Positions 8,784 through 44,881 of a stretch of DNA of 45,176 nt are shown one piece after another. The notes under the pieces were generated by a model. It was given only the letters and a program-made list of their open reading frames with translations. It had not been told where the DNA came from and ran no database searches. A program made the position numbers and the translations under genes. The DNA comes from a bacterium. GTDB lineage: Bacteria; Patescibacteriota; Minisyncoccia; Phycocordibacterales; Phycocordibacteraceae. The stretch spans positions 1 through 45,176 of the forward strand of contig JAUSCN010000010.1 of the NCBI GenBank assembly GCA_030651285.1. The letters are read 5' to 3'. How positions within the stretch are numbered: the first letter of the stretch is position 1; each line of letters starts with the position of its first letter.

Positions 8784-8789
8784 GCGTAC

Positions 8790-8853
8790 CAAGGTACGGA
8801 CGAACCGCACTTGTCAATGCTTTTGCCGGGCGCCGTTGGAGTGCGCGGCTTTC
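8790..8853 (-). promoter_or_regulatory. Late promoter element P1 (lysis genes)
   Basis: Read on the - strand: GAAAGCCGCG, 6 bp, AACGGCGCC (8837-8829), 11 bp, TTGACAAGTG (TTGACA at 8817-8812), 15 bp after TTGACA, TACCTT (8796-8791), then GG and the ATG at 8783. Four other copies with the same spacing precede other late genes. Confidence 0.75.
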
Positions 8854-8895
8854 GCCACCTTAAGATTCGTCTCAAACAACGAGGAGAGAAGAGAG

Positions 8896-9213
8896 ATGGC
8901 AACAAACCCACCGGTCCCGAAGACACTGGTCGAGCTGACCGCCGAGGTCGAGCAGCTGCGAAAGGAAATCGGCCTGGCGCCACTGCACAACAACGACACG
9001 ATCTACAACCGAATGATTGCAGTCGAGGGAGTGCCGCCAAATTGGTTGAACAGGATCTCCAAGCCTCTGGCTTACTTTTGCGCCGTCGGAGCTGCTGGAT
9101 GCGGGGTTATTGCGATCGCGACCATGGATCCCATTCGAAAAGCTGGTCTTTCCGCGTCCGGTGCCATGCTGGCCGGACTCGCAACCCTCTTCAATTGCAT
9201 GTCCGCGACCTGA
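8896..9213 (+). CDS. Small membrane protein, + strand moron
   Basis: The 105-residue product starts after a strong purine-rich ribosome site (GAGGAGAGAAGAGAG). An N-terminal helix with heptads (TAEVEQLRKEI) is followed by two hydrophobic segments (about 61-79 and 84-102). It is the only + strand gene within the late region and its TGA abuts the last codon of J (9214) without a base between. Opposite orientation and no structural role suggest a moron expressed in the lysogen. A surface or superinfection-exclusion role is only a guess. Confidence 0.68.
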   Translation: MATNPPVPKTLVELTAEVEQLRKEIGLAPLHNNDTIYNRMIAVEGVPPNWLNRISKPLAYFCAVGAAGCGVIAIATMDPIRKAGLSASGAMLAGLATLFNCMSAT

Positions 9214-11703
9214 TTACATCAACGCCCCCGCAGCTGGCATCACCGCAGGCTGAAGATTTCCGAAGTTGTACAAGTCCTGCGGAGCCCCGCCGACGGGCAA
9301 GAATGCGTTGTCGGCTGCATGCACGCGATCGGATTCCACGATGCCGACCATCTCGATCAGCTGACCCTTGGGCTTGATCGACTTCAGCCGGAGCATCTCG
9401 CAAACGTTGACCGAGTCACCGAAAGCGAGCCTCGTCGGTTCGTAGTCGGAGTCTTCGCCAACGATCGTGAACGGCGGCGGTGCCGCCAAGATCATCTCCT
9501 CGTCGGTGTTTCCGCGTGAGACAGCAAGGGGAATCGACTGCGCACCGGTCTTCGATGAGATCCGAATGTAGTGCTGGGCGCCTGCCGTCCACGTCATCGG
9601 CTGGCTGGCAACCAACGTGCGCGAGACCCCCTCGTACGCGAGAGTTTCCGCGCTCTGAGGGAAGTCGATCAGGTCGTGGGCCATGCCCACCAGGCTTCCG
9701 TACGCCGGGATCATGCCTTCTCGGTCGGTGGTCCACGTGTACGTCGCCCGGCGCCAGCGGCTGGTGGCCACGATGTACGCGACTTCACGCAAGGCGTGGT
9801 TGAAGCCCGAGATGCCTGGGAAGCTGATCTCAGCGTACTTCGCCGGCACCGGCACCGTCGCAGGCCGCTGGCCTTCGAGGTACGCGTAGACGTTGCCTTT
9901 CCAATACTGGCCAATCACAACGCGCTCGTCCCAAAATCTTCCGTCGCGGTACTTCATCCGCACAGCGTCAGGGGTCCCTTCTTGAGGCATCGCGTTCGAG
10001 ATCGTCAGCGAGTCCTTTGCCATGTTCCTTGGCTGGAACATCACCACCGGCAGCGTTTGGGCGCTGTCGCGAACGAATGAATAGTTGCCGCGGCGCACGA
10101 TGTTGACGGCACGGGCGCAGCGCGTGGCCAGGGCCAAAGCGTCGAAGATCGTCGTCTTCGTATCGAACAAATAGTCGAATCGGTCCTGACGCTCTTCGCA
10201 CGACTGAGCCAGCGCAAGGATTGCGTCCATGTCGATCCTGCTGTCCGGCAGCCCGAGCGAGTAGAACGGGTTGCGCAACATGTCGCAGATGGCCCAGGCC
10301 GGGTTCCGGTGGTGGGACGAATCCTTGATCCAGATCCACGACGTGCCGTCGAACTTGGGAATCTTCCGCTCCGCCGTCACCGCGATCTTGCGTTGAGACA
10401 TGCCCGACAGCTGCTTGCTGGCGCGCAGCTTCAGCAGGATGTAGGTGCCTTGAGGGTTCACAGGCTCGTTGATGCCCGAGATCGTCAGCTTGGAGCGCAT
10501 GCCCACCCACGTGAGTTCGCAGAGGTCCCTGCTGCTGTCGACGTACGGCGTCACGCGCTTGGCCCGCACTTGGTAGCGCTTGAAGTCAGGCGACACGTAG
10601 GAGAAGCTGCGCTGCTGGGCCGTGAGCGTGTTGCCTACGAACGAGTAGTTTTGATTTGCCGAATTCCGGATGTCGATCCAGTCGCCAACCGGCGCGCCAA
10701 AGTCATCGATCTCTTGGACCTGGGCCTGGACCTCCACGACCCGAACGTCGAGCTCGCCGGTGCTGTCTTCCTTGGCGTTGCCGATGCCTCGGGGCATCAC
10801 AAAGTCAAGGATGATCTCCTTGATCTTGTAGCCCGAACGGCAGGCGGTGAAGCCACCTGTCCAAACATTGTGGTCGCGCAGCTCCTGGCCAGAAACTTCC
10901 GGCGACGAGATCATGCTGAGGTCAACCAGGGCCTGGGTGCTCAGGCTTCCGTTGTCGGGTCCAACAACCTGAACGCTGATGTCCTGGAAGTTGGAGATCG
11001 GCGTGTCGTCGATCTCGATCTTGTGGATGTCGTACCTACCCATTCCCACCTGCAGAACGGCACTGAAATACTGCTCGTTGTTCTCGAAGTGCTGGTACGG
11101 CTGGGTGGCGTAGTCTGGGTACGAGCGGTTGAGTCCGTACGCCACGACCTTGGGCTGGTCCAACCTGGCTGAGTTGCCTTGGAGGGCAATCGAGTAGGTC
11201 GGGCTTGCGGTGGCCGAGTTGCCATCGGTTGCCTTGGGCAGCGGCACAAGCGCATTGATGAGCAAGCTGCCGAGGATCATCAGGCCAGCAGACGCAGCCG
11301 AAGCGGCCATGCCGGTCAAGCCGAGCACGGCGGGTCCGACGAACCATGCCACGCCGACCATCAGCGCGAGCTGCAGCACAACGCGCAACGGGTTCGAACC
11401 GCCCTTCCCGCCGCCGTGGGGCAGGATCTCGAATGCGATGGTTTCACCCGGCCGCACGAGAGAGCCCCAATCCGCGCGCGGAATGTACACGCCATCGATC
11501 AAGCAAACGAAAGCTTGATTCGTCTTCGGAGCCAAGCTCGCGATCGTGGCCAGGCCGCGGACGGGGGTGAAATCGTCCGCGGAAATCTCAACTTGAAGTG
11601 GGTTATCGAAGATCCCTACGCGCGCGGGAATTTCCGACAGCAGAGCGGCCCCGATCGCGGCGGAGGAAGCATTTGGCTTGAAGCGAGCTGGGTAGGCGTT
11701 CAT
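9214..11703 (-). CDS. J: Tail tip / host specificity protein J
   Basis: The 829-residue protein is the central tail-tip protein of a lambda-like siphovirus, which docks to the tail tube and carries receptor-binding regions. The N-terminal part has a hydrophobic segment (about 110-155, LALMVGVAWFVGPAVLG... ILGSLLINALVPLP) as in many J homologues, then the conserved phage-tail domain (YPDYATQPY, the DIHKIEIDDTPI region, ISSKTGAQSIPL). It is shorter than lambda J (1132 aa), so receptor binding may be shared with the fibres. The ATG at 11703 overlaps the NlpC gene stop by ATGA. Confidence 0.85.
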   Translation of the reverse strand: MNAYPARFKPNASSAAIGAALLSEIPARVGIFDNPLQVEISADDFTPVRGLATIASLAPKTNQAFVCLIDGVYIPRADWGSLVRPGETIAFEILPHGGGKGGSNPLRVVLQLALMVGVAWFVGPAVLGLTGMAASAASAGLMILGSLLINALVPLPKATDGNSATASPTYSIALQGNSARLDQPKVVAYGLNRSYPDYATQPYQHFENNEQYFSAVLQVGMGRYDIHKIEIDDTPISNFQDISVQVVGPDNGSLSTQALVDLSMISSPEVSGQELRDHNVWTGGFTACRSGYKIKEIILDFVMPRGIGNAKEDSTGELDVRVVEVQAQVQEIDDFGAPVGDWIDIRNSANQNYSFVGNTLTAQQRSFSYVSPDFKRYQVRAKRVTPYVDSSRDLCELTWVGMRSKLTISGINEPVNPQGTYILLKLRASKQLSGMSQRKIAVTAERKIPKFDGTSWIWIKDSSHHRNPAWAICDMLRNPFYSLGLPDSRIDMDAILALAQSCEERQDRFDYLFDTKTTIFDALALATRCARAVNIVRRGNYSFVRDSAQTLPVVMFQPRNMAKDSLTISNAMPQEGTPDAVRMKYRDGRFWDERVVIGQYWKGNVYAYLEGQRPATVPVPAKYAEISFPGISGFNHALREVAYIVATSRWRRATYTWTTDREGMIPAYGSLVGMAHDLIDFPQSAETLAYEGVSRTLVASQPMTWTAGAQHYIRISSKTGAQSIPLAVSRGNTDEEMILAAPPPFTIVGEDSDYEPTRLAFGDSVNVCEMLRLKSIKPKGQLIEMVGIVESDRVHAADNAFLPVGGAPQDLYNFGNLQPAVMPAAGALM

Positions 11704-12128
11704 TTTTCGTTTTCGATGTAGCGCCAGATCTGGCTTCGGCCCCACAGCTGGCTCACTTCGAGGAAGGAGCTGTGAATCACGCTGCCGGGGCTGTCAACGT
11801 CGCCGACGGCGTGGAGAACACGCAGTTGGCCGCCGACGTCGATCACAACGCCGACATGGGGGCCGGCGCGACTGCGCATCAGAAAGATGTCGTATTCGGC
11901 CGGTGCTGTGCCTTCGGGCTGCCGGTGCCAGTGCGAGCGGCGCACAAGGTCGTGGAGCCCTTCCAGCTGCTCGGGGCTCTGGAGCTCGCCAACCGCCAGG
12001 GGCGGCATCTCGATGCCCCGCTGCTGGCGCTGGACGTAGCGAACCAGTCCCCAGCAGTCGAACGCATTCGGACCGACAGCGCCAGCCAACCAGGGCTTGC
12101 CGATGAGGGGGAAAGCCCAGTGCATCAT
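11700..12128 (-). CDS. NlpC/P60 tail-tip peptidase
   Basis: The 142-residue protein has the NlpC/P60 catalytic pattern: Cys25 in FDCWGLV, His91 in GPHVGVVID and a third polar residue at His106. In lambda-like phages this domain belongs to the tail assembly protein K. It cuts stem peptides of peptidoglycan during DNA entry or is needed for tip assembly. ATGA overlaps on both sides fix the frame and the start. Confidence 0.85.
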   Translation of the reverse strand: MMHWAFPLIGKPWLAGAVGPNAFDCWGLVRYVQRQQRGIEMPPLAVGELQSPEQLEGLHDLVRRSHWHRQPEGTAPAEYDIFLMRSRAGPHVGVVIDVGGQLRVLHAVGDVDSPGSVIHSSFLEVSQLWGRSQIWRYIENEK

Positions 12129-12694
12129 CCCGACACCAAGCCCGGGTTGGAGTACCGGGTGAACATGGACTTCGGATAGCCTTCGTTGACCAGCGTGCCA
12201 AAGCCTGCGGTCATCGTCACCGTTGTTGAGGTGACATCAACGACGCGAAGGATGAGGGTGGGCACAGGAAGCTCATGCGGGGCGCTGGTGTCGCTCGCGA
12301 GGTACGTGCGGAACATCACCGTCACGTAGCTGTCGGAGTCGCGAGCGTGCCGCATGTGCTTCTGCACCTCCCGGCTTGCGTTCTCGATGTTGATGGTGAG
12401 CTCCGCCGGCGCCGAGGTGTCGTTCTCTTCGGGCTCGACGAACTGAAATGGCAGCGCCTGGAACTGCACGACCTGGCCGGCATGCAACGGCGCCGTGCTT
12501 TCAAGCGTGGCGTTCAATGGGGCGAAATTGTTGACGAGGTAGATCGGCGTTGGGTTGTCGTTCTCGTCGACGAAGGCCAGGTGATGGATCGAGAGCGTCT
12601 TGATTTCCGGCTCTGACGCCTTCGCAGACGCGTACGCTTCCAACAGAGCTTCGCTCTGAGAAACACCGACGCGTTTGGGCTGCATGTTGGGCAT
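12125..12694 (-). CDS. Minor tail protein, DUF1833-like (gpL position)
   Basis: The 189-residue protein lies where lambda has tip protein L. Segments such as LSIHHLAFVDENDNPTPIYLVN and VPTLILRVVDVTS fit DUF1833-type phage tail proteins. It is the first gene behind late element P2; the ATG at 12694 is 6 bp after the -10-like block, and a second ATG at 12685 is possible, with GGAGG 10 bp before it. It is coupled to the NlpC gene downstream by ATGA. Confidence 0.72.
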   Translation of the reverse strand: MPNMQPKRVGVSQSEALLEAYASAKASEPEIKTLSIHHLAFVDENDNPTPIYLVNNFAPLNATLESTAPLHAGQVVQFQALPFQFVEPEENDTSAPAELTINIENASREVQKHMRHARDSDSYVTVMFRTYLASDTSAPHELPVPTLILRVVDVTSTTVTMTAGFGTLVNEGYPKSMFTRYSNPGLVSG

Positions 12695-12700
12695 GCCTCC

Positions 12701-12763
12701 AAAGTACGCAGGATCGGCACTTGTCAAGGCTTTGAGGTGGCGCCGTTCGATCGCGCGCACTTC
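12701..12763 (-). promoter_or_regulatory. Late promoter element P2 (tail tip genes)
   Basis: On the - strand: GAAGTGCGCG, 6 bp, AACGGCGCC (12747-12739), 11 bp, TTGACAAGTG (TTGACA at 12727-12722), 15 bp, TACTTT (12706-12701), then GGAGGC and ATG. Confidence 0.75.
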
Positions 12764-12777
12764 AACGCGGGAACCAT

Positions 12778-12832
12778 CACCAAGAGGACCCGTGACGGAG
12801 GAAGGGAGATCAGGGGAACGGGTGCAGCACCC
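12778..12832 (+). repeat. Module-border repeat, copy c
   Basis: CACCAAGAGGACCCGTGACG then GAGGAAGG, and GGGGAACGGGTGCAGCACCC with a perfect 13-bp dyad at 12820-12832. It lies between late element P2 and the end of the gene at 12844. Confidence 0.55.
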
Positions 12833-12843
12833 CGCTCATTAGT

Positions 12844-13203
12844 TCAGGGGCGTGTCAGACCGGTGACCTGCAGCGTGCCGGAGATGCGATACCCGAAGCC
12901 GGGAATCACTTCGTGCTTGATCTCTGTCGTGAACTTCGCCAAAGAAGCGACGATGCCTGTCTCACAAGGAAGAGGAATCGAACACCGGCGCTGACCACGA
13001 AGCATGTCCGTCTCGTACCACTGGTCCCAGACAGACATTAGTTCCTTTGGGATCTCCCAGACCACGTCCGCGCTGTACACACGATCGCGCATCCTTCCGC
13101 GTGCGTAACCACGGTCTTCCGAAACCTGAGCGCGAGCGGCCCTCGTTTTCGAGAACGAAGAGACACCCGGCAGCGTGGATGGGTAGACGATTGCGCGTGT
13201 CAT
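12844..13203 (-). CDS. Minor tail protein (119 aa)
   Basis: Starts MTRAIVYPSTLPGV and overlaps the preceding gene by ATGA (13200-13203). Segments RDRVYSADVVWEIPKELMSVWDQWYETDML and a beta-rich C-terminus fit a small tail-tip protein next to the M/L position. It is the last gene transcribed before late element P2. Family name uncertain. Confidence 0.68.
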   Translation of the reverse strand: MTRAIVYPSTLPGVSSFSKTRAARAQVSEDRGYARGRMRDRVYSADVVWEIPKELMSVWDQWYETDMLRGQRRCSIPLPCETGIVASLAKFTTEIKHEVIPGFGYRISGTLQVTGLTRP

Positions 13204-14144
13204 GAATTCTCCCGTCCGGTCGGCTTGGTGCCCAGTTCGATGGTGAACTGGCTCGTGGCAACGTAGCCCGAGGTCTGGTCTTTGACCTGGATCGTGAGCA
13301 GGTACTTGATCCAAGGGTGGAACGCCGAGGAGCGCAGTTGCGTCACGCGATCGGCTGTGATCGAGTTCACCGCGGCATCCAGTCGGTACACAGTCAGCGC
13401 TTCCGGGTCAGTCGTCTGAATCACCGGCGGAACGCCGTACTGCGACGGGTTGTTGCCCGGAATCCCGGAGCTGTCGCGGTATTCCAGCACCACAAGGCTG
13501 CGGGCGTAGCTGTACTGCGCTGACGGGGTGGTGTTCGTCGCCGCTTTCCACTGGCCGGCGACGACGACCTGGCCGGCATCGGCGATGTAAACCAGGCGGC
13601 CGGTACTTGCAACGATGGCGACAGTGACCAGTGCTTGGCCGGTCGGCAAGCTCTTGATGCTGTAGTTGCTGAGACTGATTGCGCGCACGGGGTCCTGCAC
13701 GCCACCGCTTCCACCGCCACCGGGCGCTTCGCCACCGGTCGCACCGTCAACGTTGATGAGGCGCGGGAACTTGCCCAGAGGCACGCCGGCGGTCATCACC
13801 TTCGCGGAAACGGTCCAGTTCATCCCCTCATCGACAGTTTCCACCGGCGGCTCGAGGAAGAACACCAGGGCGGACGCCAGCCCGCCCCGCTTGTCATCCA
13901 ACTGGCACGTGAAGAATTTCGACCCCGCAGCCAGATCGGTTTCGTAGAACTCCGCGAACGTGGCGTACTGCGCCGACGTGAACTTCCACGAAAGCGTGGT
14001 CACCGTGGGCACGTTGAGGTGCAGAGCACGGACGCGCTTGCCACCGGCGTCGGTGTCCATCGCTGTCGTGAGGGGCTTCCTTTCGAAACCGTACTGGCCC
14101 GCCAGCGGGGCTGGCAGCGAGATCGGGAAGATTGGATCGCTCAC
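13200..14144 (-). CDS. Minor tail protein with two domains (gpM position)
   Basis: The 314-residue protein starts MSDPIFPISLPAPL and overlaps the tape measure stop by ATGA. The N-terminal 140 residues resemble the following tail protein in style (LSWKFTSAQYATFAEFYETDL, comparable to the WEIPKELMSVWDQWYETDM segment of the next gene). A GGGGSGG linker then leads to a beta-rich C-terminal domain, possibly Ig-like. Both genes may share an ancestral tail-tip domain. Confidence 0.66.
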   Translation of the reverse strand: MSDPIFPISLPAPLAGQYGFERKPLTTAMDTDAGGKRVRALHLNVPTVTTLSWKFTSAQYATFAEFYETDLAAGSKFFTCQLDDKRGGLASALVFFLEPPVETVDEGMNWTVSAKVMTAGVPLGKFPRLINVDGATGGEAPGGGGSGGVQDPVRAISLSNYSIKSLPTGQALVTVAIVASTGRLVYIADAGQVVVAGQWKAATNTTPSAQYSYARSLVVLEYRDSSGIPGNNPSQYGVPPVIQTTDPEALTVYRLDAAVNSITADRVTQLRSSAFHPWIKYLLTIQVKDQTSGYVATSQFTIELGTKPTGRENS

Positions 14145-17100
14145 GTCATCGTCGTGCGGTTCACACCGTACGTCCCTTGCATTGCGTCGGCCACAGTGCC
14201 TCCCTTGCGCACGTCGTTGGCCACGGCATTCAGGATCACGTCAATGATCGATCCTCCGTTACCGTCGCTTCTTTGTTCTGTCTTCGCCTCTGTGCCTGCG
14301 GGCGCACCGATCACGTTGACGACAACCGACGTGGCAACGTTGACGTTCGCACCACTGCTGCCAGTGGCTGCGCCACCGTTGAGCTTCGCCATCGAAAGGT
14401 TGGTGCCGCTTCCGGCGGTTCCCTTGGTGTGGTCATAGACGGTCTCGTCGGGGTGCAGGATCGACAGGAAGCCGCCCTTTCCGTCCACGCCGCCGGAGCG
14501 GTTGCCGGTGCCGGTGTAGCCGCCACCATCGCCGGTGAACAGGCCGCTGATCCAGTTGCCGATGCTACTGAAGAATCCGCCACCGCTGGCGCTGGCCGAC
14601 GCGCCTCCGGACGAGCCACCACCCGACCCGCCGCTGAGCGACTTCAAGATCGAATCGAACATCCCACCACCGCCACCGAGCTTGCCCGAGTCGCCGAAGA
14701 ACAGCCGGCTCAGGTTCGTCTCGATCAACTTGCTCGCCATCGACTCGACGAGCGACGAGAACGAAGTGCCGATGCCTTTCAGGTCACCCTTCACGAGGGC
14801 GGCTGTCATCGAACCCAGGTTCGTTTGGATGCTGCGACCGGCCACCAAGGCGAGGTCTGTCATCGTTCCAAGGGAGCCATTGACCGCCTCGGTGCCTTCC
14901 AGCATCTTCCGGTAAGCCTCACGCTGGGCCTTCACGAACGTGGGCTCAAAACCCGCACCCTGCGTGGCCTTCAGCTCATTGAGCTCCTTCAGCTCGCGCG
15001 TGTACTTTTCCATTGGAGTCTGCATCGACTCCATCAGATCACGGGCCTTTTCGGCGTTCTTCAGCTGCTTGTCGTCGACGTCCTTCTGGATCTCTTCGTT
15101 CAGATCGCGGCGAGCCTTCGTCAGGTCCTTCGTGACCTTGGCCAGCTGTTTTTCTGTTTCGATGCGCTTCTGTTCTGTCTGATCCCCGGCGCCGTGAGCC
15201 TTCACGATCTCGACTTCACGAGCCGATTGCGCTTCCAGCTCGACCAGCCGGTTGGCGCGCAACGTACGCATTTCCGCGTCGTATTCCGTCTCCGTGATCT
15301 TTTTCGCTTTCAGCGAGTTTTGGAGCTTGCGCACGTTGTCGTCGTACACAACGGAGCTGTCGGCCTGCGCTTCCTTGACGGCGAGCAGTGCCTTTTCTTC
15401 GTCGTAGGCGCTGCGGATCTGCTTGTCCTTGAGCCCCTGCAGCGTGGTCAGCTTGGCCGAGTATTCGTCCAGCTGGGCCGTGCTGGCGCCCATGTTTTTC
15501 AAGTCGACGATTTTCCGGAAGTCGTCAGACTTCCCGAAAGTCTCGATGTCGCGATCCACCGACTGCGTGAAGTTCTTCAGCTTGTCGTTCTTCGGGGCCT
15601 TCGCACCTTTGGGGTCCTTCAGCTTTTCGTCCGATTCGCGGATCTGCCGATCTCTCTCAGCGCGGTTGGCCGCAGTGTCCTCGAGCTTGGAGAAGTCACG
15701 CGTGATCTGAGCGCGAGCCTCGGCACGCTGCTTTTCCTTGCCTGCGTTTGCCTTGTCGCGTGCGGCAATGCTGGCTTGGGCAGTGGCCCGTTCCTCGCGC
15801 GCCTTCAATGCAACAGCGTCGGCCTCGGCCTTATCTCGCGCAGCTGCCTCCTTCTGGGAGGCAGATTCCTTGTCCTTCTTCTCGGCTGCGATCTCGGCGT
15901 TCACGCCGGTGTAGTAGCCCATCGCGCCGCCAAGCGCCGGCACGATGGTCGAAGCGATTCCGGATACGTAACTCTTTGCGGTGGCGAAGAGACCAGGCCC
16001 GCTGTTGCCCTCGGGCGAAGGCACCGACGAGTAGCCACCCTTGGCTTTTCCGCCCACGGTGGGCCGCATGCCGACGTCGAAAGGATTCGCGTTCGGGTCG
16101 AAATCACCCTCGACTTCGGACATGCGGCCAACGCCGCGAACCTCATCCCAGTACCTCTTGACAGAAGTCCAGGCCTTGTCCCAGGAGCGCTCCATCACGC
16201 TGGCTTGCGCCTTCACCGTTGCTGCGCGTCCAATCAGCGAGTTGGCGTATTCGCCCATGATCAGGGAGGCGGCCCCGGTCTTGTTGCCGTGCTCCTCCAT
16301 CTTCCGAGCAGCGTCAGCAACCTCGGCGCTCAGGAAGTGGGTCGAGCGGTTGAGTTCTTCCGCTGCCTTGACCGGGTGGTCCGCCAGCGAGGAGAAGACC
16401 TTCACCACGTCTTCGACGCTCTTCCCGGTCGCGTCATTAGTCGCGACGACAGCCCGACCAACCAGCTCGAGCTGAGAACCGGAGACCTTACCGGTCGCGG
16501 CAAGGGCAGCCAGCGCTTCCGCAGCGGCACTTGTCGTCGTCGTGAGGGAGCCAACGCGCTGGGCGGCCTCCTGCATCTGCAGCGCGGTTTTCCCGACGTA
16601 GTTGCCGGATTCCACGATGGCGATGTTGTACGCCTTCGTTTCCGAGGCGCCCTGGTAGTAGGCCAGGCCAATGGTGGCCGCGGCAGCTGCAGCCAAGGTG
16701 AACGGGTTGATCAGCCCCATCGCGTAGGAGCCAAGGGCCTTCATCGCCGGGCCGATGCCGCCGAACATGTCCTTGAGCTGGCCACCCTGCTGGAGCATCA
16801 CCGTGAACGGGTTCTGACCCGCCTGCAGGGACACCACGATGTCGGTGAACTGCGCAGGCACGCCGCGCATGGCGGCGGCCTGAGCCTTGGCCGACATCGT
16901 GTAGGCCTTGGTCTTCTTGTCGAGCTCGTCAATCTTCGGCGCCGCAGAACCAGCACCAGCCCCGAGAGAGGCAAGGCCGGCAGCGGGACCACCGAAGGCG
17001 TTTCGGAGGTTCGACAGCGAAGATGTCAGGGGCGTGAAGAAGCTCGTCGTCGAGGCGCCGGCAGCACGCACACGTGCGGACACGCTGTCGTACATCTGGC

Positions 17101-19711: not shown

Positions 19712-19741
19712 TTGGATACTCCAGGAATTTCGATTTCGGGG

Positions 19742-20155
19742 TTACACGGCGCCGTAGACGTCGGCGAAGAAGGGAACGCGCACGGGGAAGCGCTGCCAAA
19801 CGGCATCGGGAAGCACGGGGCCGGTGTAGGGCGGCTGCCTCACGTGGACGCGGATTCCGTTGGCGTCGAGGTTGGTTCCATGCTTGAAGCGGCGCTTGAT
19901 CTGGTCGACCTTGGCTCGCCCTTCCGTCAGGCCACTGCCTGTGGGAAAGCAAAAGGTGACCTTGAAAGAGCCCACTTCGCGAACGAAATCACCTCCGACC
20001 ACGAGACCCTGAGGGGCGCTCATGTCCAGTTGGATCTCTGCGTACGGAGCCTTCTTCGGGTTCGGGAACGCGACGCCTTCCTTCGCAAACGGAAGGGCGC
20101 CTGGCATTGCTGCCAGGGCTACTTCGAATGCAGTGCTGATCGCTTCGGTGCTCAT
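19742..20155 (-). CDS. Tail terminator (DUF4128-like)
   Basis: The 137-residue protein, starting MSTEAISTAFEVALAAMPG, sits just before the tail tube gene and fits DUF4128-type terminators that cap the growing tube and join it to the head. It is the first gene behind late element P3. Its ATG lies 6 bp after the -10-like block, too close for a normal leader, and no Shine-Dalgarno is visible. Confidence 0.75.
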   Translation of the reverse strand: MSTEAISTAFEVALAAMPGALPFAKEGVAFPNPKKAPYAEIQLDMSAPQGLVVGGDFVREVGSFKVTFCFPTGSGLTEGRAKVDQIKRRFKHGTNLDANGIRVHVRQPPYTGPVLPDAVWQRFPVRVPFFADVYGAV

Positions 20156-20161
20156 GCGTCC

Positions 20162-20224
20162 AAGGTACGCATGAACCCCACTTGTCAATGGATTTGCAGG
20201 GCGCCGTTAGCGCGCGCGGCTTTC
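20162..20224 (-). promoter_or_regulatory. Late promoter element P3 (tail genes)
   Basis: On the - strand: GAAAGCCGCG, 6 bp, AACGGCGCC (20208-20200), 11 bp, TTGACAAGTG (20188-), 15 bp after TTGACA, TACCTT (20167-20162), then GGACGC and ATG. The element touches the stop codon of the preceding gene (20223). Confidence 0.75.
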
Positions 20225-20627: not shown

Positions 20628-20629
20628 GA

Positions 20630-20968
20630 TCAGCCCCCAGAGCGGATGATGGCTTCGTAGAAGAGCACATCCCCCGCCGGCGCAAACGCACCAGGATCGA
20701 CCACGGTGTGAACCACCTTCCCGATCTCGATCTCCGTCAGCGGCCCAACCGGCGCCGTGATTCCGACTGCGGACATCAGGAGCTTCTTGTCTCCGACCTC
20801 GATCGTCTTTCCGTCGACGAGCTTGAGTTCGATGTCGAAAACCGCTGCCGGAACCTTGAACACCTTGAGGACGCCGGCAGCGTTCTTGGTGCGCACGATG
20901 ACGGTTTGGCCTTTCGACTTCAGAACCCGGTCGACGGTGGCGATGGCGCGAACGTAACTCGGGTGCAT
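20630..20968 (-). CDS. Head closure / head-tail joining protein
   Basis: The 112-residue beta-rich protein stands between the connector adaptor and the gp10-type neck protein. Size and place match head-closure proteins (stoppers). MHPSYVRAIATVDRVL then KGQTVIVRTK at the start and VDPGAFAPAGDVLFYEA near the end. Family assignment is by position. Confidence 0.62.
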   Translation of the reverse strand: MHPSYVRAIATVDRVLKSKGQTVIVRTKNAAGVLKVFKVPAAVFDIELKLVDGKTIEVGDKKLLMSAVGITAPVGPLTEIEIGKVVHTVVDPGAFAPAGDVLFYEAIIRSGG

Positions 20969-20970
20969 GG

Positions 20971-21462: not shown

Positions 21463-21473
21463 TAGTTCTCCGA

Positions 21474-21932
21474 TCAGCCAGCCGCAAGGCGAGACTTAAG
21501 TTCGAAACCGAGCAGCGGCCACAGCTTTTGTACGGCATTCTCGCGAGCGATGCGCCGGCCAATTTCGGCATCGAAGTTTTCCGGCGACGCACAGGCCGAC
21601 TCACCGGTGACGGTGAAGCCGTTGGCCAGCACCAGCACGCAGAAAGTGAGCAGCTCGAGCGGACCGCGGTGCTTTGCGTCTTCGTTCTTGCACGCGTTGT
21701 CCCATTCCATCAGCACTTCATCACCGTATTCGGTGGCCCGAACGGCCTCGATGAGGATGGGCGTCGCCGGGTGGTACTTCGCGCCCGCACCTTCCGCAGC
21801 CGTAAAGTAGTGCTCGGCAACGATGGCTTTGGCGATGTCGACAGGCGTCACGCGAGCGGCAACTTTGCCTTTGGACTGGATGAGACGCTCGATGGATGCG
21901 TCGTCGTTGGCGGGTGCGGTGATGTTGTGCAT
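21474..21932 (-). CDS. Gp49-like protein (N4 gp49 / Sf6 gene 66 family)
   Basis: The 152-residue protein ends with FTVTGESACASPENFDAEIGRRIA and WPLLGFELKSRLA, the signature of the N4 Gp49 / Sf6 gene 66 family found in many phages; the function is unknown. The ATG at 21932 has a GAGG about 9 bp upstream. The upstream membrane-protein frame runs into this gene for about 210 bp. Confidence 0.78.
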   Translation of the reverse strand: MHNITAPANDDASIERLIQSKGKVAARVTPVDIAKAIVAEHYFTAAEGAGAKYHPATPILIEAVRATEYGDEVLMEWDNACKNEDAKHRGPLELLTFCVLVLANGFTVTGESACASPENFDAEIGRRIARENAVQKLWPLLGFELKSRLAAG

Positions 21933-22245
21933 GGGGTGCCTCAGGTGGTGGTTTTTCGAGGGCGTTCTGACGGGCCGCGAGCCACGACCTAGCTGCTGCG
22001 AGGTTTCCAGACTTGGCCTGGTCAAAGTGGGCCGCGGCGATCTGGCCTTTCAGCTCAGCGATTTCGCGCTTCAGCTCTGCGACCTCGGCGAGCAGATCTC
22101 GGACGCTTCCACCGGCAGCGATGGCCAGCTTGATGACCTGTTCTTCCATGCGTGCCATCCGTGGGTGTGGCGAGAAGAGAACGGCCATGAAAATGAGGTA
22201 GGCGGTGGCTACCAGCGCGCAGAGCAATGCTTCGACAGCGGTCAT
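21721..22245 (-). CDS. Small membrane/coiled-coil protein, 3' end uncertain
   Basis: Starts MTAVEALLCALVATAYLIF after GAGGAA, with one transmembrane helix (about 5-25) and a coiled coil (VAELKREIAELKGQIAA, about 55-75). After about residue 104, where the Gp49-like gene begins, the frame becomes Arg/His/Cys-rich (QHHRTRQRRRIHR) and looks like an out-of-frame reading. The real product may be shorter or joined to the next frame by a shift. Total open frame 174 residues. Confidence 0.5.
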   Translation of the reverse strand: MTAVEALLCALVATAYLIFMAVLFSPHPRMARMEEQVIKLAIAAGGSVRDLLAEVAELKREIAELKGQIAAAHFDQAKSGNLAAARSWLAARQNALEKPPPEAPHAQHHRTRQRRRIHRASHPVQRQSCRSRDACRHRQSHRCRALLYGCGRCGREVPPGDAHPHRGRSGHRIR

Positions 22246-22312
22246 GTGAGTTCCTCTGTAGGGAAATACGATCACGGAGAGCCCCGCATCCGCAGGGCCT
22301 ACCGTCAGCGCA

Positions 22313-22795
22313 TTACTTGCGTTTGGCCGGCTTCTTCGCTGGCGCAGCCTTCACGACTTCGGGGGCCTTCGTCACCGTGATTTCGGCCTGCACATCGGCG
22401 CCGGTGCTGTTCGTCACCGTGACGTCGACTGGTGCCACATCTGGCACCACTGCTTTTTCGTCAGCGGGTTTGTCAATGAACGATTCGCTCTGGTGCAGGA
22501 CCGCGGTGAAGCTGCCATCCGCGTTCGGGGTGGGATCTCCACCGCCAACGTAGCCACCGACTTCGAAGCCAGGCGGCAGGGTGACGTCGTTCACGGAAGG
22601 AAGAATCGACACCGTTGCACCCACGGCCTCGTAGGCTTCACGGATGCGTTGGTCTTCGCGCTCGAGACCAACGACAACGAACTTCTCCACTTCCGAGAAG
22701 AAGGCGATGTTCCGGATCGCGACCTTGTCGCCCGCGTCCAGCAGAGCCTTGAGGGGCTCTGCCGAACCGTCGACGGTGTAGGCGACGGCGTCCAT
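22313..22795 (-). CDS. Unknown capsid-linked protein (160 aa)
   Basis: Directly follows the capsid gene with 3 bp between. The N-terminal half (EVEKFVVVGLEREDQRIREAYEAVGA) is mixed alpha/beta, the C-terminal half repeats acidic valine-rich segments and ends in a basic tail AAPAKKPAKRK. A head decoration or assembly role is suggested by position only. Confidence 0.6.
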   Translation of the reverse strand: MDAVAYTVDGSAEPLKALLDAGDKVAIRNIAFFSEVEKFVVVGLEREDQRIREAYEAVGATVSILPSVNDVTLPPGFEVGGYVGGGDPTPNADGSFTAVLHQSESFIDKPADEKAVVPDVAPVDVTVTNSTGADVQAEITVTKAPEVVKAAPAKKPAKRK

Positions 22796-22798
22796 GGC

Positions 22799-23776
22799 TT
22801 ACTTGGACTTGATCACGACGCCGGCCAGATCTTTGCTCGAGGCAACGATCTTCTTCCAGCTGTTGGAGGCCGCGACTGCCGAAGCAACCGGGTTCTTGCC
22901 AACCGTGGTGTCGTAGCTGAAACCCTTCAGCTTCAGGTTGAAGGCGTACTCGCCTTGCATCCGGAAGAAGATCTGGTTGTAGCCAGTGATCGGGTCGGTC
23001 ACGGTGATGAACATGTCTTCCGTTTCCTCGGCCGTCACAGCACCTTCGGTCAGACCGAGGGTGAAGTAGTCGGTACCGTCGACCAGGCCGGCTTCGGCAT
23101 CGGTCACCACGATCGGACGACCGTACGAAGCCGGGGAGGCACCGTACACGATGGCGCCGGCGACCTGGTCACCGTGCACGGAAGGCAGAGCCTGACCGCG
23201 AACGAGATCCCAGTACGTCTTCGAGTGCATCGCCCAGGCCTTCACGCGGGAAGCGCGATCGCCCATTTTCGACAGCGCAATGGCCAGCGCGTCCGTGTTG
23301 AGCACACCGCTCGTGGGAACCACGTAGCTGTTGCTGGCTTGGCCAACGAGAGCGGTACGCAGACCCGACAGCGAGGTGTTCAGCATTTCCTCGACCACTT
23401 GCTCAGCGGCTTGTGCGCCGGCTTCGAAGCGGAAGATGTCCATGCTGAAGCCAGGCTTGCGCGTGGACGACAGGGTCCAGGTCTTCGGCAGGATCTGGCG
23501 ATTCAGCTTGACGCCGGTCGACACCTCCATCGTCAGCTTGCCGTCGTCAACCGGCACCAGGACGTCTTGGTCCTGACGGGCGATCGCGCCTGGCGAACCC
23601 TTGATGAAGGCTTCGTGGTCGAAGTCACCGTGCTTGCGCTCGGTGGTCAGGACGATGGTGCCAGCCGACTGGCCGTTGAACACGTCGAGGTTCTGGTTCA
23701 GGCGCTCTTTGTAGCCTGCCAGCGAGAAGGGGTCTTGAAACTTGGTGTCGGCGGGTTTCGTGGTTTGGTTTGCCAT
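22799..23776 (-). CDS. Major capsid protein
   Basis: The 325-residue protein follows the scaffold gene and has AGGAG before the ATG. Segments such as VKAWAMHSKTYWDLVRGQALP, GRPIVVTDAEAG and YFTLGLTEGAVTAEETEDMF are typical of phage major capsid proteins with the HK97 fold. No protease gene is visible nearby, so the separate scaffold is probably not a protease fusion. Confidence 0.87.
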   Translation of the reverse strand: MANQTTKPADTKFQDPFSLAGYKERLNQNLDVFNGQSAGTIVLTTERKHGDFDHEAFIKGSPGAIARQDQDVLVPVDDGKLTMEVSTGVKLNRQILPKTWTLSSTRKPGFSMDIFRFEAGAQAAEQVVEEMLNTSLSGLRTALVGQASNSYVVPTSGVLNTDALAIALSKMGDRASRVKAWAMHSKTYWDLVRGQALPSVHGDQVAGAIVYGASPASYGRPIVVTDAEAGLVDGTDYFTLGLTEGAVTAEETEDMFITVTDPITGYNQIFFRMQGEYAFNLKLKGFSYDTTVGKNPVASAVAASNSWKKIVASSKDLAGVVIKSK

Positions 23777-23803
23777 GATGGGCTCCTGGGGATACGTTGG
23801 TAA

Positions 23804-24496
23804 TTACTTGGGCAGGGCGTCGAACGCCTTGTCGCCGTGCTCGGCGATGTAGGCGACCTTTTCGGCCGTGGACTTCAGATCCGAGACTTTCGTGACCCCA
23901 CCAGGGCCCTTGTTTCCGCTACCGGAGGCACCGCCACCGGAAGACGCCGGTGCACTGATGAGGTGCTTGCCGGAATCGCCAGCGAGGTAGGCAGCGATGC
24001 CTTCGCTCATTGGCTTGTCACCGATCACGGCGACGAAGGCACCGTTCTCGGATTTGATTTGCGCTTGCGAGCGGAAATGCGACTTCGCCATGTCGTGGAA
24101 CTGCGGTGCGACGCCGGCTTTGATCAACGCTTCGTTGATGCCGTTGTCGACCAGCAGCTTCTCGAGAGCGCTGTCCTTCTCCGCAAGCGATTTCTTCAGG
24201 CCACCGGATTCGGTGTCCTTCGCCTTCGTGACCGTCTTGAGCTGTTCCGTCAACGTGTCGACTTGGGACAGCAGAGCTGCGTGCTCTTCCGGATCGATGT
24301 CCGCACCCTTGGCTTTCGCCTGGAGCGCACGCTTCTCCGTGATGAGCGTCGCGTTCTTGGCCTTCAGCGAATCCACGCTGGTGGTCAGTTCGGCGACGAG
24401 TGCTTGCAGTTCTTCGAGAGTCATTTCGGTTTGCCCACAGGGCTGGTTGGCGCCCCACTGGGGCTGAAAATACGGTGACGCTTTCGCGCCTGACAT
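23804..24496 (-). CDS. Scaffolding protein candidate
   Basis: The 230-residue protein starts MSGAKASPYFQPQWG. From MTLEELQALVAEL on it forms a long coiled coil, then has a helical middle (INEALIKAGVAPQFHDMAKSH) and a Gly/Ser-rich linker before a C-terminal helix. This is the style of phage scaffolding proteins encoded just before the capsid gene. It is the first gene behind late element P4, with its ATG 4 bp after the -10-like block and no Shine-Dalgarno. Confidence 0.78.
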   Translation of the reverse strand: MSGAKASPYFQPQWGANQPCGQTEMTLEELQALVAELTTSVDSLKAKNATLITEKRALQAKAKGADIDPEEHAALLSQVDTLTEQLKTVTKAKDTESGGLKKSLAEKDSALEKLLVDNGINEALIKAGVAPQFHDMAKSHFRSQAQIKSENGAFVAVIGDKPMSEGIAAYLAGDSGKHLISAPASSGGGASGSGNKGPGGVTKVSDLKSTAEKVAYIAEHGDKAFDALPK

Positions 24497-24500
24497 GTCC

Positions 24501-24563
24501 AAGATACGTACAGTCGGCACTTGTCAAGCGAACCGCATGGCGCCGTTGGTTCACGCGTACTTC
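24501..24563 (-). promoter_or_regulatory. Late promoter element P4 (scaffold and capsid)
   Basis: On the - strand: GAAGTACGCG, 6 bp, AACGGCGCC (24547-24539), 11 bp, TTGACAAGTG (TTGACA 24527-24522), 15 bp, TATCTT (24506-24501), then GGAC and ATG. It overlaps the 3' end of the preceding gene. Confidence 0.75.
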
Positions 24564-25492
24564 GAACGCAGGGCTTCCAACGAAATCGGGTTCGCGCGAG
24601 CGTCAAGGAGCTGCGTCAGCGTGATGGTCCCGGCGCGGTACTGGTCCAGGCGGCCAGCCCCCAGGATGGCGTCCTGCTCGGCTGCGCTCTTGCTGCCGAT
24701 CCAGGCCAGGAAGGAGGTTTCCTCGTTCAGGTTCTCGTCGACGCCGGTGCCAGGTGTGGGCACGATGACGGAGCGGCAGTTGTCGTGCCGCGGGCAGCCA
24801 CCATCGAAATCGAGCTTCTTCACGCCGGTAGGCCGCAGCTGCAGGTCCCAGGTGGCGCCGCTGTACGTGCGGCAGACGTCTGATGTACGACTGTCGAGCA
24901 CGGAGATCTGCTTGAAGCCCCCAACGTCACCGGAGAGGACCTTTTCGTTCTCGGAATACACCCGCATGCGTGCATCCCCGCCCGCGGCAGTCGTCGCGGT
25001 GTAGATCAGCGACTTCGCGTGGTTCGCCTGCGTGTTCATCAGCACCACCAGGCGCGGACCCGACAACGCGAACGCAGCCCCACCGAGTCCGATGAAGCCG
25101 AAAGCGAGGTTCTCAGCCTGACGAGCCCACCAGGCGCCCACGGGGTGGCCCATCACGTCCGCGGGGTCATCCTCCTCCGGTGCCGTGATTTCGGCGTCGG
25201 GGAATGCATCTTCGAGATCGGAAATGCATTTGCTTTCGAACACTTCCGCGATCGCAGCCATGTCCGTGATCGCTTCGAGGTCCTTGTACGCTTTCGTGAT
25301 GGCTTCGGTTGCGCGCTTCTCCAGGCGGCGGGTGCTGGTGCTGGTCACCGCGATGACGGCCAGGATCCCGAGGAGGTCATCCCGCAGGTCGGAGAGCAAC
25401 TGGCCGGCCTCGACGGTCATGCCAGCGGCCAGGCGCTGCTGGTCGATGGCATCCAGGACGGCCTGCTCGGCCAGGATGGAGGCTGAGCTCAC
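24551..25492 (-). CDS. Mu F-like head morphogenesis protein
   Basis: The 313-residue protein has an N-terminal helical region and the conserved C-terminal block ISVLDSRTSDVCRTYSGATW with PRHDNCRSVIVP, the signature of the phage Mu gpF / SPP1 gp7 minor head protein family. These proteins are injected or help head assembly and are encoded just after the portal gene. ATGA overlap with the portal gene. Confidence 0.85.
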   Translation of the reverse strand: MSSASILAEQAVLDAIDQQRLAAGMTVEAGQLLSDLRDDLLGILAVIAVTSTSTRRLEKRATEAITKAYKDLEAITDMAAIAEVFESKCISDLEDAFPDAEITAPEEDDPADVMGHPVGAWWARQAENLAFGFIGLGGAAFALSGPRLVVLMNTQANHAKSLIYTATTAAGGDARMRVYSENEKVLSGDVGGFKQISVLDSRTSDVCRTYSGATWDLQLRPTGVKKLDFDGGCPRHDNCRSVIVPTPGTGVDENLNEETSFLAWIGSKSAAEQDAILGAGRLDQYRAGTITLTQLLDARANPISLEALRSKYA

Positions 25493-26964
25493 TTGGCGGC
25501 CTTGTCGTCAGCCTTCTTCGCTGGCGCTGGTGCCGGCAGCGTGGGGGCTGGCAGCAGCGGGGCTTCGGCCTCGATCTGAGCGGCCTCCTCCTCGAACGTC
25601 ACCCCGATCGGGATGATCTCGCCGGCCTGCAGCACGCTGAACTTGGTGCGCTCGGAGATCGCGCCAGCCTGCCATGCGGACACGACAGCGGTGAGGTCCT
25701 GGGCCGTCATGCCCGTGGGCATGAAGTCCTTGTTCAGGGAGACGAGGACCTTTCCGGGTGCGCCTTCCCACTCGGCGATCGTCTGCAGAACTTTCGTCAG
25801 CGTGCGGCCAACGCGATCGGCAATGTTCGTGAGCGAAGAGGTTTCCGCGTTCGTGCGGATCTCGGCAGTGCCGACAGCTTCGACGCCGGCCTTGTCGTTC
25901 ACGAGCATGCGGGCGCCCAACTGCGCCATGTACTGCAGCTTGCGGTCGATCAGGCGCTCGATGGTGCCCAGGCCGTCGCCCTTGAACTCCAGGTAGCCTG
26001 GCTCGGCCTTGTACTGGCTGGCCTTGAAGGTCCAGGCCTCACGAGAGCCGATCGACAGCTCGCGCGGGATCTCGTTGCCGTTCTTGTCGATGTCGTTTTC
26101 GTGGGTGTAGTTGGAGATGTACACCGTCGGCAGCCCGGTGAAGTGGGCGCCGTTCTCCAGGTCGGCCGTGTTGCGGAAGGCCGAGAGTTCCTGGATGGCC
26201 AGGTCTTCGAGCACGGGGCTCTTCACCGGCAGCTGATCGATGAAGAACGGGATGTAGCCCAGGCGCTTACCCCGGATCACGGGCGCGATGGACTCCGTCA
26301 GCGTCCAGCCGTTGGTGTTCTCCGTCCACACTTCCTGGACGTATTCGTTGCCGGCATCGAGCTTCAGAACGCGGATCTTCTTCACATCCACGAGCTCGAA
26401 TTCATCCGTCGGCGATGGCTCCGCACCCGATTCATCGAGCACGATGAGCACTGGCTGCATGACGTTTCGCACACGCTTCTGGCGCCAGTTGATGATCGAT
26501 TCCGCACAGTATTCGGTCACGAAAGACCGGAATCCAAGGGCTTCGTGCTCTGCAACCGTCCGCTTTTTCCCGTCAGCGGTTGGGGGCACGACCGGGTACT
26601 CAGCGAGCAGTCCGATCCGCGACACCGTGAGCTCTTCGTCGACGAGGCTCTGTGCGAGGTCGGAGAGGCTCTTCCCCGTCAACGTGATGTCTTCGAGGAT
26701 GGCTTTCAACGACGCCGGGGCTTCGACGACGGGGGGCTTGCGGAAGATCAGCCCCTTGAGGCCGTCTGCCGTGCGCCGCGTGGCCGAGATGAAGGTCGCC
26801 CGCTGACCGTAGGCAGCGTAGTCGTCAGCGGTCTGCTTCGACAGCTTGGGCAGGTAACGCACGCCGGCTGCGTGAACAGCGTCATCGCCACCGAAGGCAT
26901 CACGCATGCGTTGAACCTTCTTCCGGTTCGCTGCGTATTCGGGATGTTGCGTGTCAACGGGCAT
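25489..26964 (-). CDS. Portal protein (DUF4055 type)
   Basis: The 491-residue protein, starting MPVDTQHPEYAANRKKVQRM, follows the large terminase with 1 bp between and has the segments of DUF4055 portals (RRTADGLKGLIFRKPP, ELSAFRNTADLENGAHFTGLP, GAWTFK-like EAWTFKASQYKAEPGYLEFKG). The portal forms the DNA-entry ring at one capsid vertex. The C-terminus is rich in Ala/Pro/Lys (PAPAPAKKADDKAAK). Confidence 0.87.
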   Translation of the reverse strand: MPVDTQHPEYAANRKKVQRMRDAFGGDDAVHAAGVRYLPKLSKQTADDYAAYGQRATFISATRRTADGLKGLIFRKPPVVEAPASLKAILEDITLTGKSLSDLAQSLVDEELTVSRIGLLAEYPVVPPTADGKKRTVAEHEALGFRSFVTEYCAESIINWRQKRVRNVMQPVLIVLDESGAEPSPTDEFELVDVKKIRVLKLDAGNEYVQEVWTENTNGWTLTESIAPVIRGKRLGYIPFFIDQLPVKSPVLEDLAIQELSAFRNTADLENGAHFTGLPTVYISNYTHENDIDKNGNEIPRELSIGSREAWTFKASQYKAEPGYLEFKGDGLGTIERLIDRKLQYMAQLGARMLVNDKAGVEAVGTAEIRTNAETSSLTNIADRVGRTLTKVLQTIAEWEGAPGKVLVSLNKDFMPTGMTAQDLTAVVSAWQAGAISERTKFSVLQAGEIIPIGVTFEEEAAQIEAEAPLLPAPTLPAPAPAKKADDKAAK

Positions 26965-26965
26965 G

Positions 26966-28222
26966 TCAGACTCCAGTGATGATCAGTGAGCCGGACTTGC
27001 CGACCACGGGGAAACGTTTTTCGAGGAAGTAGCCAGCGGCATCGCCGTGGTGGTCGAGCCCCGACTTCTTGTCGGGATTGCCCTTGTCGTCGTAGACCTG
27101 CTGCTCGAGCGTCTCGACGAAGGACGTGCACTTGTCGACGTTGACCAGCATTCGCCGCTCACCGTGGCCGTTGAGGATCTGGGCGTTCACGGCAGCGATG
27201 CGGTTCTTCACCGTGGGGTGGGCCGCATGCGCCTCGGTCTTGAAGCCGGCCTTGTGCAAGATCACGAAATCGGACACATCGACGTCGTTCGACGACGGCG
27301 CAGTGCCCGCGGGATCGGGGTAAATCGTGATCGGATGCTTGAAGCCATACCGCGTGCGGATCGCTTCAGCCATCGCAGGCGTGTCTCTCAGCTTGCGGAA
27401 CTCATCGAGTGCGAGGGGGCGGCCGTCGCGGATCACAAACACGACCGCGGACATGTTGTAGATGTTGAAGTCCATGCCAATGTGCAGGCTCTCGCCTGGG
27501 CGGATGGTCTCCGTGGTGCTGTTCAGATCGCGGTCGAAGTCGGCGTAAATGGAGCCGGAATTCAGGTTGGTGAAGAGCCCACGGACGTACGCCAGCACCA
27601 GGTGGGGCGGGTAGTTGGCCAGGAGCTTGTCGATGTAGTCCGGCTCCAGGTTGTGGAGGTTGGAATACGTCGACGCAGTGATGAGGCGGAAGCCGGCCTT
27701 GGCCTCCTTCACCCATTTCAAATGAGTCGCGCCAAAGCCCTCGGGCGTCGTGGCCACCGCGATCGTGTTCTTCTCGCCATGGTCCTTCTTCTGACGATTC
27801 CGGGCGAGGACCTTGTTCCAGATCTGCAGCGCCAGCTTCATCTTGAGCGTGTCGTACTCATCGAGCACGGTGTCTGCGGTTTCGAAGCCGACCAGGCGAG
27901 CGGGGTCTTCCATGGTCCGGAAGAGGAACTTGCCGTAATGCTTGACGGTGATCGTTTTCTCGTTCTTGTTGGTCTTGTACGAGAGGCCGTGCTCCTCGAG
28001 CATCGACTCGATGCGAGGCCAGGCGAACTGCGAGATCAGGTCGTACGTCGGGGCGTAGTAGCCGACCGTGCCCCGCGGGTACATGATCTTTCTGATCACC
28101 GCTCGCGCAGCTGCCGCCTGCGTCTTTCCGGTGCCGTAGCCAGCAACGAACGCGGGGTAAGGCTCTTCCGCAAGCGCAAATTCCGCCTGTGGTGCCGTCA
28201 AATTGAAGTTCAGTTCACGCAT
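26966..28222 (-). CDS. terL: Terminase large subunit
   Basis: The 418-residue protein has Walker A GYGTGKT (28-34) and Walker B DTVLDE (117-122) of the packaging ATPase. It also has nuclease carboxylates in IGMDFN (D251), YPDPAG (D303) and HHGDAAGYF (D394). ATG at 28222 (MRELNFNL) gives an 8-bp overlap with the small-subunit gene; a longer frame to 28309 only reads through that gene. Confidence 0.92.
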   Translation of the reverse strand: MRELNFNLTAPQAEFALAEEPYPAFVAGYGTGKTQAAAARAVIRKIMYPRGTVGYYAPTYDLISQFAWPRIESMLEEHGLSYKTNKNEKTITVKHYGKFLFRTMEDPARLVGFETADTVLDEYDTLKMKLALQIWNKVLARNRQKKDHGEKNTIAVATTPEGFGATHLKWVKEAKAGFRLITASTYSNLHNLEPDYIDKLLANYPPHLVLAYVRGLFTNLNSGSIYADFDRDLNSTTETIRPGESLHIGMDFNIYNMSAVVFVIRDGRPLALDEFRKLRDTPAMAEAIRTRYGFKHPITIYPDPAGTAPSSNDVDVSDFVILHKAGFKTEAHAAHPTVKNRIAAVNAQILNGHGERRMLVNVDKCTSFVETLEQQVYDDKGNPDKKSGLDHHGDAAGYFLEKRFPVVGKSGSLIITGV

Positions 28223-28814
28223 CCGGAACTGCCTTCGATGCCGGATTTTTCGGCAGCTCTTCAGGCTCCTTGAACGGAGACGCCTGCACCGAGACCGTGA
28301 TCTTTCCAACGGGGCCGGAATTCTTCCCGTCGTCGTGTTCTTCCGGCGTCGCTTTCCAGCGCTTGGGCTGACGGTTCAACAGCCAAAACTTGGCCGCGTT
28401 GAAGTTTTTCGGGACGAATTGAGGGACCTCAACGAGGATGACCTCTTCGATTCCGGTCTTCGGATCGCGGATCTTGTGGCTCTCGTAGCCGGTGTAGCCG
28501 TAGCCCTGGGCCATGTCGCGAAGGGACAGGTCCACCACGACGTCGGCGATCGGGCGCGCGCGTGTGATGGCATCCGAAAACGTGCGGTGTTTCTTGATCC
28601 AGAGACCGATGGTGCTGACCGCGACGTTCATCACAACGGCCATCTCCTCGAGGGTCAAGCCAACGAGGGTCAGGTTGTAGGCGAGCTGGTCGAACTCCTG
28701 CGAGTAGGCGGACGGACGCCCGCCGGCCTTCCTTTTGGGGACAGCAGCGGGTTTGATCGCTCGGGTTTTGGTTGAACGCGAAGGCGACTTAGACTGGGGC
28801 GAGCGGGTGGCCAT
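28215..28814 (-). CDS. terS: Terminase small subunit
   Basis: The 199-residue protein has a basic N-terminus and an HTH (LTLEEMAVVMNVAVSTIGLWIKKH, about 52-75) of the kind used to recognise the packaging site. It ends with AKFWLLNRQPKRWK and a disordered acidic tail, as terminase small subunits do. It is the first late gene and its ATG is 7 bp behind the -10-like block of element P5, with no Shine-Dalgarno. Confidence 0.85.
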   Translation of the reverse strand: MATRSPQSKSPSRSTKTRAIKPAAVPKRKAGGRPSAYSQEFDQLAYNLTLVGLTLEEMAVVMNVAVSTIGLWIKKHRTFSDAITRARPIADVVVDLSLRDMAQGYGYTGYESHKIRDPKTGIEEVILVEVPQFVPKNFNAAKFWLLNRQPKRWKATPEEHDDGKNSGPVGKITVSVQASPFKEPEELPKNPASKAVPDA

Positions 28815-28821
28815 TCAATCC

Positions 28822-28868
28822 AAAGTACGGATGAATGGCACTTGTCAAGCAAATCGAAGGGCGGAAAC
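28822..28868 (-). promoter_or_regulatory. Late promoter element P5 (terminase operon)
   Basis: On the - strand: GTTTCCGCC (28868-28860, a diverged AACGGCGCC block), 11 bp, TTGACAAGTG (TTGACA 28848-28843), 15 bp, TACTTT (28827-28822), then GGATTGA and ATG. The upstream GAAG block is not conserved here. Confidence 0.7.
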
Positions 28869-44868: not shown

Positions 44869-44881
44869 GCCCCGATCATCC

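Follow-up and report, generated by a model that had tools for sequence, protein, structure and literature searches.

Five repeated elements 5' of late genes in a prophage: putative activator-dependent late promoters

An integrated tailed phage carries five closely similar sequences, each placed before the start of a late gene. The question is which role these elements play in late gene expression. The window, that is, the whole stretch of DNA analysed here, is one whole contig of 45,176 bp. The att core is a 49-bp direct repeat (93-141 and 45036-45084) within the tRNA-Thr(CGT) gene (65-140). Both host flanks are exactly 92 bp long, and 141 is a common maximum k-mer in assembly. As 92 + 49 = 141, the contig may well stop at the branch of the assembly graph between the integrated and the empty site. 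This hints that the contig ends are assembly branch points and that the empty site is also present in the sample.

The contig comes from a bin of small genome size, 0.86 Mb, with a completeness of 96.7% and a contamination of 5.3%. The G+C content of the prophage contig is 61%, against 48.5-49.8% in three sampled contigs of the bin, and a search of the remaining bin found neither host flank. The prophage contig is therefore probably mis-binned in this small-genome MAG. Another contig of the bin has 62% G+C and bacterial genes of a different type. The 16S search for the host yielded only a fragment.

The core of the element is TTGACAAGTG-N9-CGTA(C/T)(C/T)TTGG. There are five copies in the window (E1 to E5, Table 1), every one on the minus strand, directly 5' of a gene start and facing the direction of transcription. 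TTGACAAGTG is identical in all five copies, CGTAYYTTGG is present in the window in the five elements only, and 19 of the 29 core positions are invariant. With a position matrix, the five cores reach 38.7-43.7 bits, compared with 10.4 for the next best site. No further copy of the core was found anywhere in the assembly with 3 mismatches allowed. The distance from TTGACA to TA(C/T)(C/T)TT is exactly 15 bp in all copies, and GG is next. The core ends 2-5 bp before the ATG, which places the last T of TA(C/T)(C/T)TT 4-7 nt from it. The AGTG 3' of the -35 and the CG/GG flanking the -10 are invariant to the same degree as the hexamers. CTTGWCAAG, a local palindrome, is found in three copies. The composite pattern has four matches in the real window, compared with 0.01 in window shuffles. 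The initial annotation had placed five minus-strand copies here, with a perfect -35, a fixed 15-bp distance, GG and a nearby ATG; pattern search and matrix bear out each of these points.

The upstream module, GAAR-N2-CGCG-N6-AACGGCGCC, is situated 11 bp 5' of TTGACA in four of the five copies (E1 to E4). In the terminase copy, E5, GTTTCCGCC is present in place of AACGGCGCC, and the GAAR/CGCG block is absent. The elements had been described as sharing one layout in which all five spacings agree, with a GAAG block 6 bp before AACGGCGCC. The block does stand there in four copies, its actual form being GAA(A/G)-N2-CGCG, but the common layout fails for E5.

Over the five copies, the mean pairwise identity is 1.00 for TTGACAAGTG, 0.90 for CGTAYYTTGG, 0.51 for N9, 0.38 for N11 and 0.28 for the flanks. 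Over E1 to E4, it is 1.00 for both AACGGCGCC and CGCG and 0.83 for GAAR. The blocks are thus under constraint, being 83-100% identical against 38-51% in the spacers and ~28% in the flanks. The five elements do not count as five independent cases, since E1 and E3 match at 86% over 65 nt and are close copies of each other. E2 and E4, in turn, have the blocks in common with N11 only 18% identical. This indicates that the blocks are kept by selection rather than by recent copying alone.

The late genes are on the minus strand, from the terminase small subunit gene (28814) through to the tail fibre genes near 4.2 kb. The elements head the lead genes of five late units. The gene assignments made initially hold by PHROGs, with a weak match for the holin. 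Two small genes on the plus strand, 8896-9213 and 28871-29137, are divergent from E1 and E5, respectively. Both encode membrane- or signal-peptide-like segments (by eye), and 8896-9213 has a clear Shine-Dalgarno sequence. It is possible that they are accessory insertions at late-unit borders. A DNA methyltransferase gene followed by an Eco29kI-family restriction endonuclease gene (29262-31291, plus strand; PF09517, 3.2e-49) separates the early genes from the small terminase gene and adjoins the module-less E5.

Table 1. Coordinates of the elements, the genes that they precede, and other features of the prophage.
Feature	Position	Strand	Remark
E1 core, TTGACAAGTG-N9-CGTACCTTGG (putative -35/-10)	8789..8817	-	5' of putative holin gene, ATG 8783
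E2 core	12699..12727	-	5' of minor tail gene, ATG 12694
E3 core	20160..20188	-	5' of tail terminator gene, ATG 20155
E4 core	24499..24527	-	5' of scaffold gene, ATG 24496
E5 core	28820..28848	-	5' of small terminase gene, ATG 28814; without upstream module
E1 upstream module, GAAA-N2-CGCG-N6-AACGGCGCC	8829..8853	-	11 bp 5' of TTGACA
E2 upstream module, GAAG-N2-CGCG-N6-AACGGCGCC	12739..12763	-	
E3 upstream module, GAAA-N2-CGCG-N6-AACGGCGCC	20200..20224	-	
E4 upstream module, GAAG-N2-CGCG-N6-AACGGCGCC	24539..24563	-	overlaps end of preceding gene
Terminase small subunit, late unit 1 lead gene	28215..28814	-	phrog_309, 4e-28
Head scaffolding protein, late unit 2 lead gene	23804..24496	-	phrog_206, 4e-25
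Tail terminator, late unit 3 lead gene	19742..20155	-	phrog_179, 4.5e-17
Minor tail protein, late unit 4 lead gene	12125..12694	-	phrog_396, 2.2e-30
Putative holin, late unit 5 lead gene	8475..8783	-	weak PHROGs match, 8e-4
Endolysin	7901-8482		follows putative holin
First tandem-HTH protein (131 aa, two predicted tri-helical HTH units), candidate regulator	38698..39093	-	low-confidence model, pLDDT 56
Second tandem-HTH protein (PF01527/PF13384), candidate regulator	38375..38782	-	true start probably inside ORF
Third tandem-HTH protein (PF01527/PF13384), candidate regulator	37944..38378	-	about three HTH repeats by eye
Integrase	43513-44949		

The usual spacer of sigma-70 promoters is 17 +/- 1 bp, and 15 bp falls outside this range. 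All five elements have TTGACA as the -35, but the 16-18 bp spacer and a TATAAT-like -10 are not seen. TANNTT has three or four of the six bases of TATAAT, and there is no better hexamer at 16-18 bp from the -35. ECF and sigma-54 promoter patterns are absent. Elsewhere in the late region, no sigma-70-type promoter was found above chance. Counted from the ATG (+1), the -10 spans about -12 to -7 and the -35 spans -33 to -28. Further upstream are AACGGCGCC (-53 to -45) and GAAR-N2-CGCG (about -69 to -60).

A TANNNT located ~12 bp 5' of the start codon is a signature of leaderless genes (PMC3160421). From the first base of TANNTT to the ATG, the distance is 10, 12, 12, 13 and 13 nt, and all five elements agree with this signature. 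There is no Shine-Dalgarno sequence before the starts, although E2 is ambiguous. The anti-Shine-Dalgarno pairing of the five element genes is +0.4 to -3.1 kcal/mol. In 13 other late genes, those where the first available start was used, it is mostly -4 to -10 kcal/mol, and all but one are at -4.0 or stronger (p = 0.003 for a small set of 5 vs 13 genes with predicted starts). In E2, GGAGG is 1 nt 5' of the ATG and 10 nt 5' of a second in-frame ATG, at which this gene could start as a leadered one. The likeness to the TANNNT leaderless genes of Deinococcus-Thermus and Actinobacteria consists of the ~12 bp to the start codon and the lack of a Shine-Dalgarno sequence. The differences are the invariant -35 at 15 bp, the upstream block, and the other genes of the present phage, which mostly have a Shine-Dalgarno sequence. 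The element is unlikely to be coding, as the distance to the ATG shifts by 1-3 nt and there is no constant frame. The GTG inside TTGACAAGTG was considered as a start codon and rejected; it is in phase with the ATG only in E1 and E4, so that its frame is not conserved, and in E5 a stop codon in frame comes before the ATG.

The division of a late region by several like promoters is a known design. P2 has several like late promoters (PP, PO, PV and PF) with an upstream activator site, and an early phage protein is needed (PMC3931495). In Mu, activator C acts just upstream of the -35 of four late promoters (lys, I, P and mom) (PMC4461284). The present late region resembles that of P2 in being split into units by like promoters, with an upstream block at which a protein would bind. 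It differs in sequence: the P2 site is TGT-N12-ACA, and none is present from -90 to +45 bp around the TTGACA start in any of the five elements. A perfect -35 and an ATG at the expected start point are further differences. The module conserved just above the -35 in four of the five elements is a likeness in position to Mu, whose -35 and -10 are non-consensus whereas the -35 here is consensus and invariant.

The known activators are not represented among the early genes. In 108 early-region ORFs, searches with Pfam and PHROGs found no member of the Ogr/Delta zinc-finger family of the P2 system, the Mor/C family of the Mu system, the antiterminator Q family, which serves a single late operon, or the sigma families, where divergent members could be missed. 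There was likewise no T7-type RNA polymerase or known polymerase-binding family in these ORFs, with the same caution for divergent factors. Candidate regulators are encoded by three adjacent tandem-HTH genes at 37.9-39.1 kb. Their products are homeodomain-like; paralogy is clear for the second and the third (E 1e-18) and weak for the first (4e-5). Low-confidence predicted structures of candidate regulators (pLDDT 56 and 45) gave no significant match in PDB. That these paralogues activate the elements is a guess. Another paralogue set is present on the minus strand (31637-32008, 34468-34851 and 34848-35309). These small proteins have TDAG...MT..TG in common and no family match, and the gene at 31637-32008 is the next after RusA. 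The activator could also come from this set or from another ORFan, the gene after RusA among them. The early region also contains an HNH endonuclease gene (35722-36255, minus strand; phrog_99, 4.8e-45).

Relatives carrying the element were searched for in several ways. The exact core had no match in IMG/VR and one stray match in the GTDB species genomes, against ~7 expected by chance under uniform sequence. The stray match is in Halocynthiibacter, before a cobalamin-riboswitch-like region, and the core is not repeated in that genome. A relaxed core search gave two single unrelated matches. AACGGCGCC-N11-TTGACA gave 23 scattered single matches with the rest of the element absent, and blastn of one element against phages and plasmids returned only chance-level pieces. 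Relatives sought by portal, tape measure, capsid, terminase and tail terminator were all distant, and the portal search in 398 Pseudomonadota genomes found nothing at 1e-60. Element matrix scans and a repeat search in the structural-gene relatives (portal/capsid identity up to ~41%) found no such element. Repeats 5' of gene starts in 17 relatives were only terminators, coding repeats, or the ordinary promoters of one distant relative, L089 (capsid 41%). The L089 repeats, at 5511 (-), 6302 (+) and 8238 (+), were rejected as the same element, being TTGACA-N17-TATTCT with an ACTTGA/TCAAGT inverted repeat; these promoters are probably repressor-controlled. In the open-access literature searched, no described promoter family has a matching form. 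The earlier statement that no such family is described survives the searches of IMG/VR, GTDB, phages and plasmids, and literature, while the scan of related phages proposed with it did not find the element in the available, only distant, relatives.

On balance, it is somewhat probable that the five elements serve a temperate tailed phage as activator-dependent, leaderless or nearly leaderless late promoters. This is favoured by the weak promoter, the block just above the -35, a place at which the late activators of P2 and Mu bind, and the absence of another promoter above chance in the late region. There would be one late promoter for each late unit: packaging, head, tail, tail tip and lysis. 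The host RNA polymerase with the housekeeping sigma would recognize TTGACA (-35) and the weak TANNTT (-10), and the 15-bp spacer together with the poor -10 would result in low basal firing. After induction, the four downstream promoters (E1 to E4) would be switched on together by an early protein of the phage that binds GAAR-N2-CGCG-N6-AACGGCGCC, at roughly -69 to -45. Transcription would start at the ATG or a few bases from it. We infer all of the promoter identity, the start point, the activator and its gene, and the drive of the module-less E5. The anatomy of the elements is consistent with the promoter and leaderless start proposed in the initial annotation, and the weak -10 and the conserved upstream block agree with dependence on an activator. 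The proposal that all five elements have the same activator site was wrong as stated, since the terminase copy lacks it. The lack of the module in E5 also counts against the activator-dependent reading itself, because co-regulation would be expected of the terminase operon.

In a first alternative, a phage sigma-like or polymerase-binding factor could read TTGACAAGTG and CGTAYYTTGG as one extended site, with the upstream module as an accessory. The invariance of AGTG and CG/GG exceeds the needs of ordinary sigma-70, and E5 would represent the core without the module. Such a remodelled or alternative polymerase is unlikely, as no factor of a known family was found among the early ORFs (divergent ones would be missed) and the perfect sigma-70 -35 would be a coincidence. 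Repressor sites are another alternative. The cluster A repressor is a monomer with two DNA-binding domains and binds an asymmetric site (PMC9283540); it may serve as a model for tandem-HTH proteins on a long asymmetric site. At each late unit, a phage repressor lying across the -35 could prevent initiation or elongation during lysogeny, as the stoperators of cluster A do. As in L5-type phages (PMC9283540), the sites are several, asymmetric, co-oriented with transcription and in short late intergenic gaps, and the local palindrome in three copies also fits a repressor. But cluster A sites are 13 bp and more than twenty per genome, as in L5, whereas here five elements of ~70 bp are present at late gene starts only, at a fixed place 5' of start codons and together with a -10-like block that is conserved. 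The early region, in which a repressor has to act, contains none, and we regard this function as quite improbable.

Action in the mRNA, with promoters elsewhere, would be expected of a translation-start element like the SAS of mycobacteriophages. In cluster K, SAS/ESAS is a phage-specific repeat 3-7 bp 5' of the ATG and contains AGGAG (PMC3203893). The elements here are similarly close to the ATG (2-5 bp), in one orientation, and have a larger upstream block in some copies. They contain no Shine-Dalgarno core and no GGGATAGGAGCCC-like sequence with AGGAG, the sequences being different, and they precede late genes only, whereas SAS precede non-structural genes. The conservation reaches ~70 bp upstream, including the -35, and no other promoters were found in the late region, which makes a purely translational role very improbable. 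Copied repeats without a regulatory role, such as recombination boundary sequences spread across the late region, would explain the close similarity of E1 and E3 and the positions at module borders. The blocks remain identical, yet the spacers are diverged, also between E2 and E4, and it is hardly credible that copying is the whole explanation.

A more complete version of the activator-dependent reading can be offered only tentatively, and it is doubtful as a whole. It is an undescribed late regulon in which a tandem-HTH phage protein acts on four or five short-spacer promoters, in each of which the start codon coincides with the transcription start. Late units would thereby have their lead genes expressed from leaderless mRNA, and late expression would be set by the activator and by the capacity of the host for leaderless translation. 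If this is true, the element would be a compact promoter-plus-start cassette controlled by a phage activator, and a further case of coordinated late switching alongside Q, Ogr and C. The phage would be suitable for asking why lead late genes are leaderless when the genes next to them rely on Shine-Dalgarno sequences. In uncultured phages, cassettes of this type would also allow late transcription units to be recognized directly from sequence.
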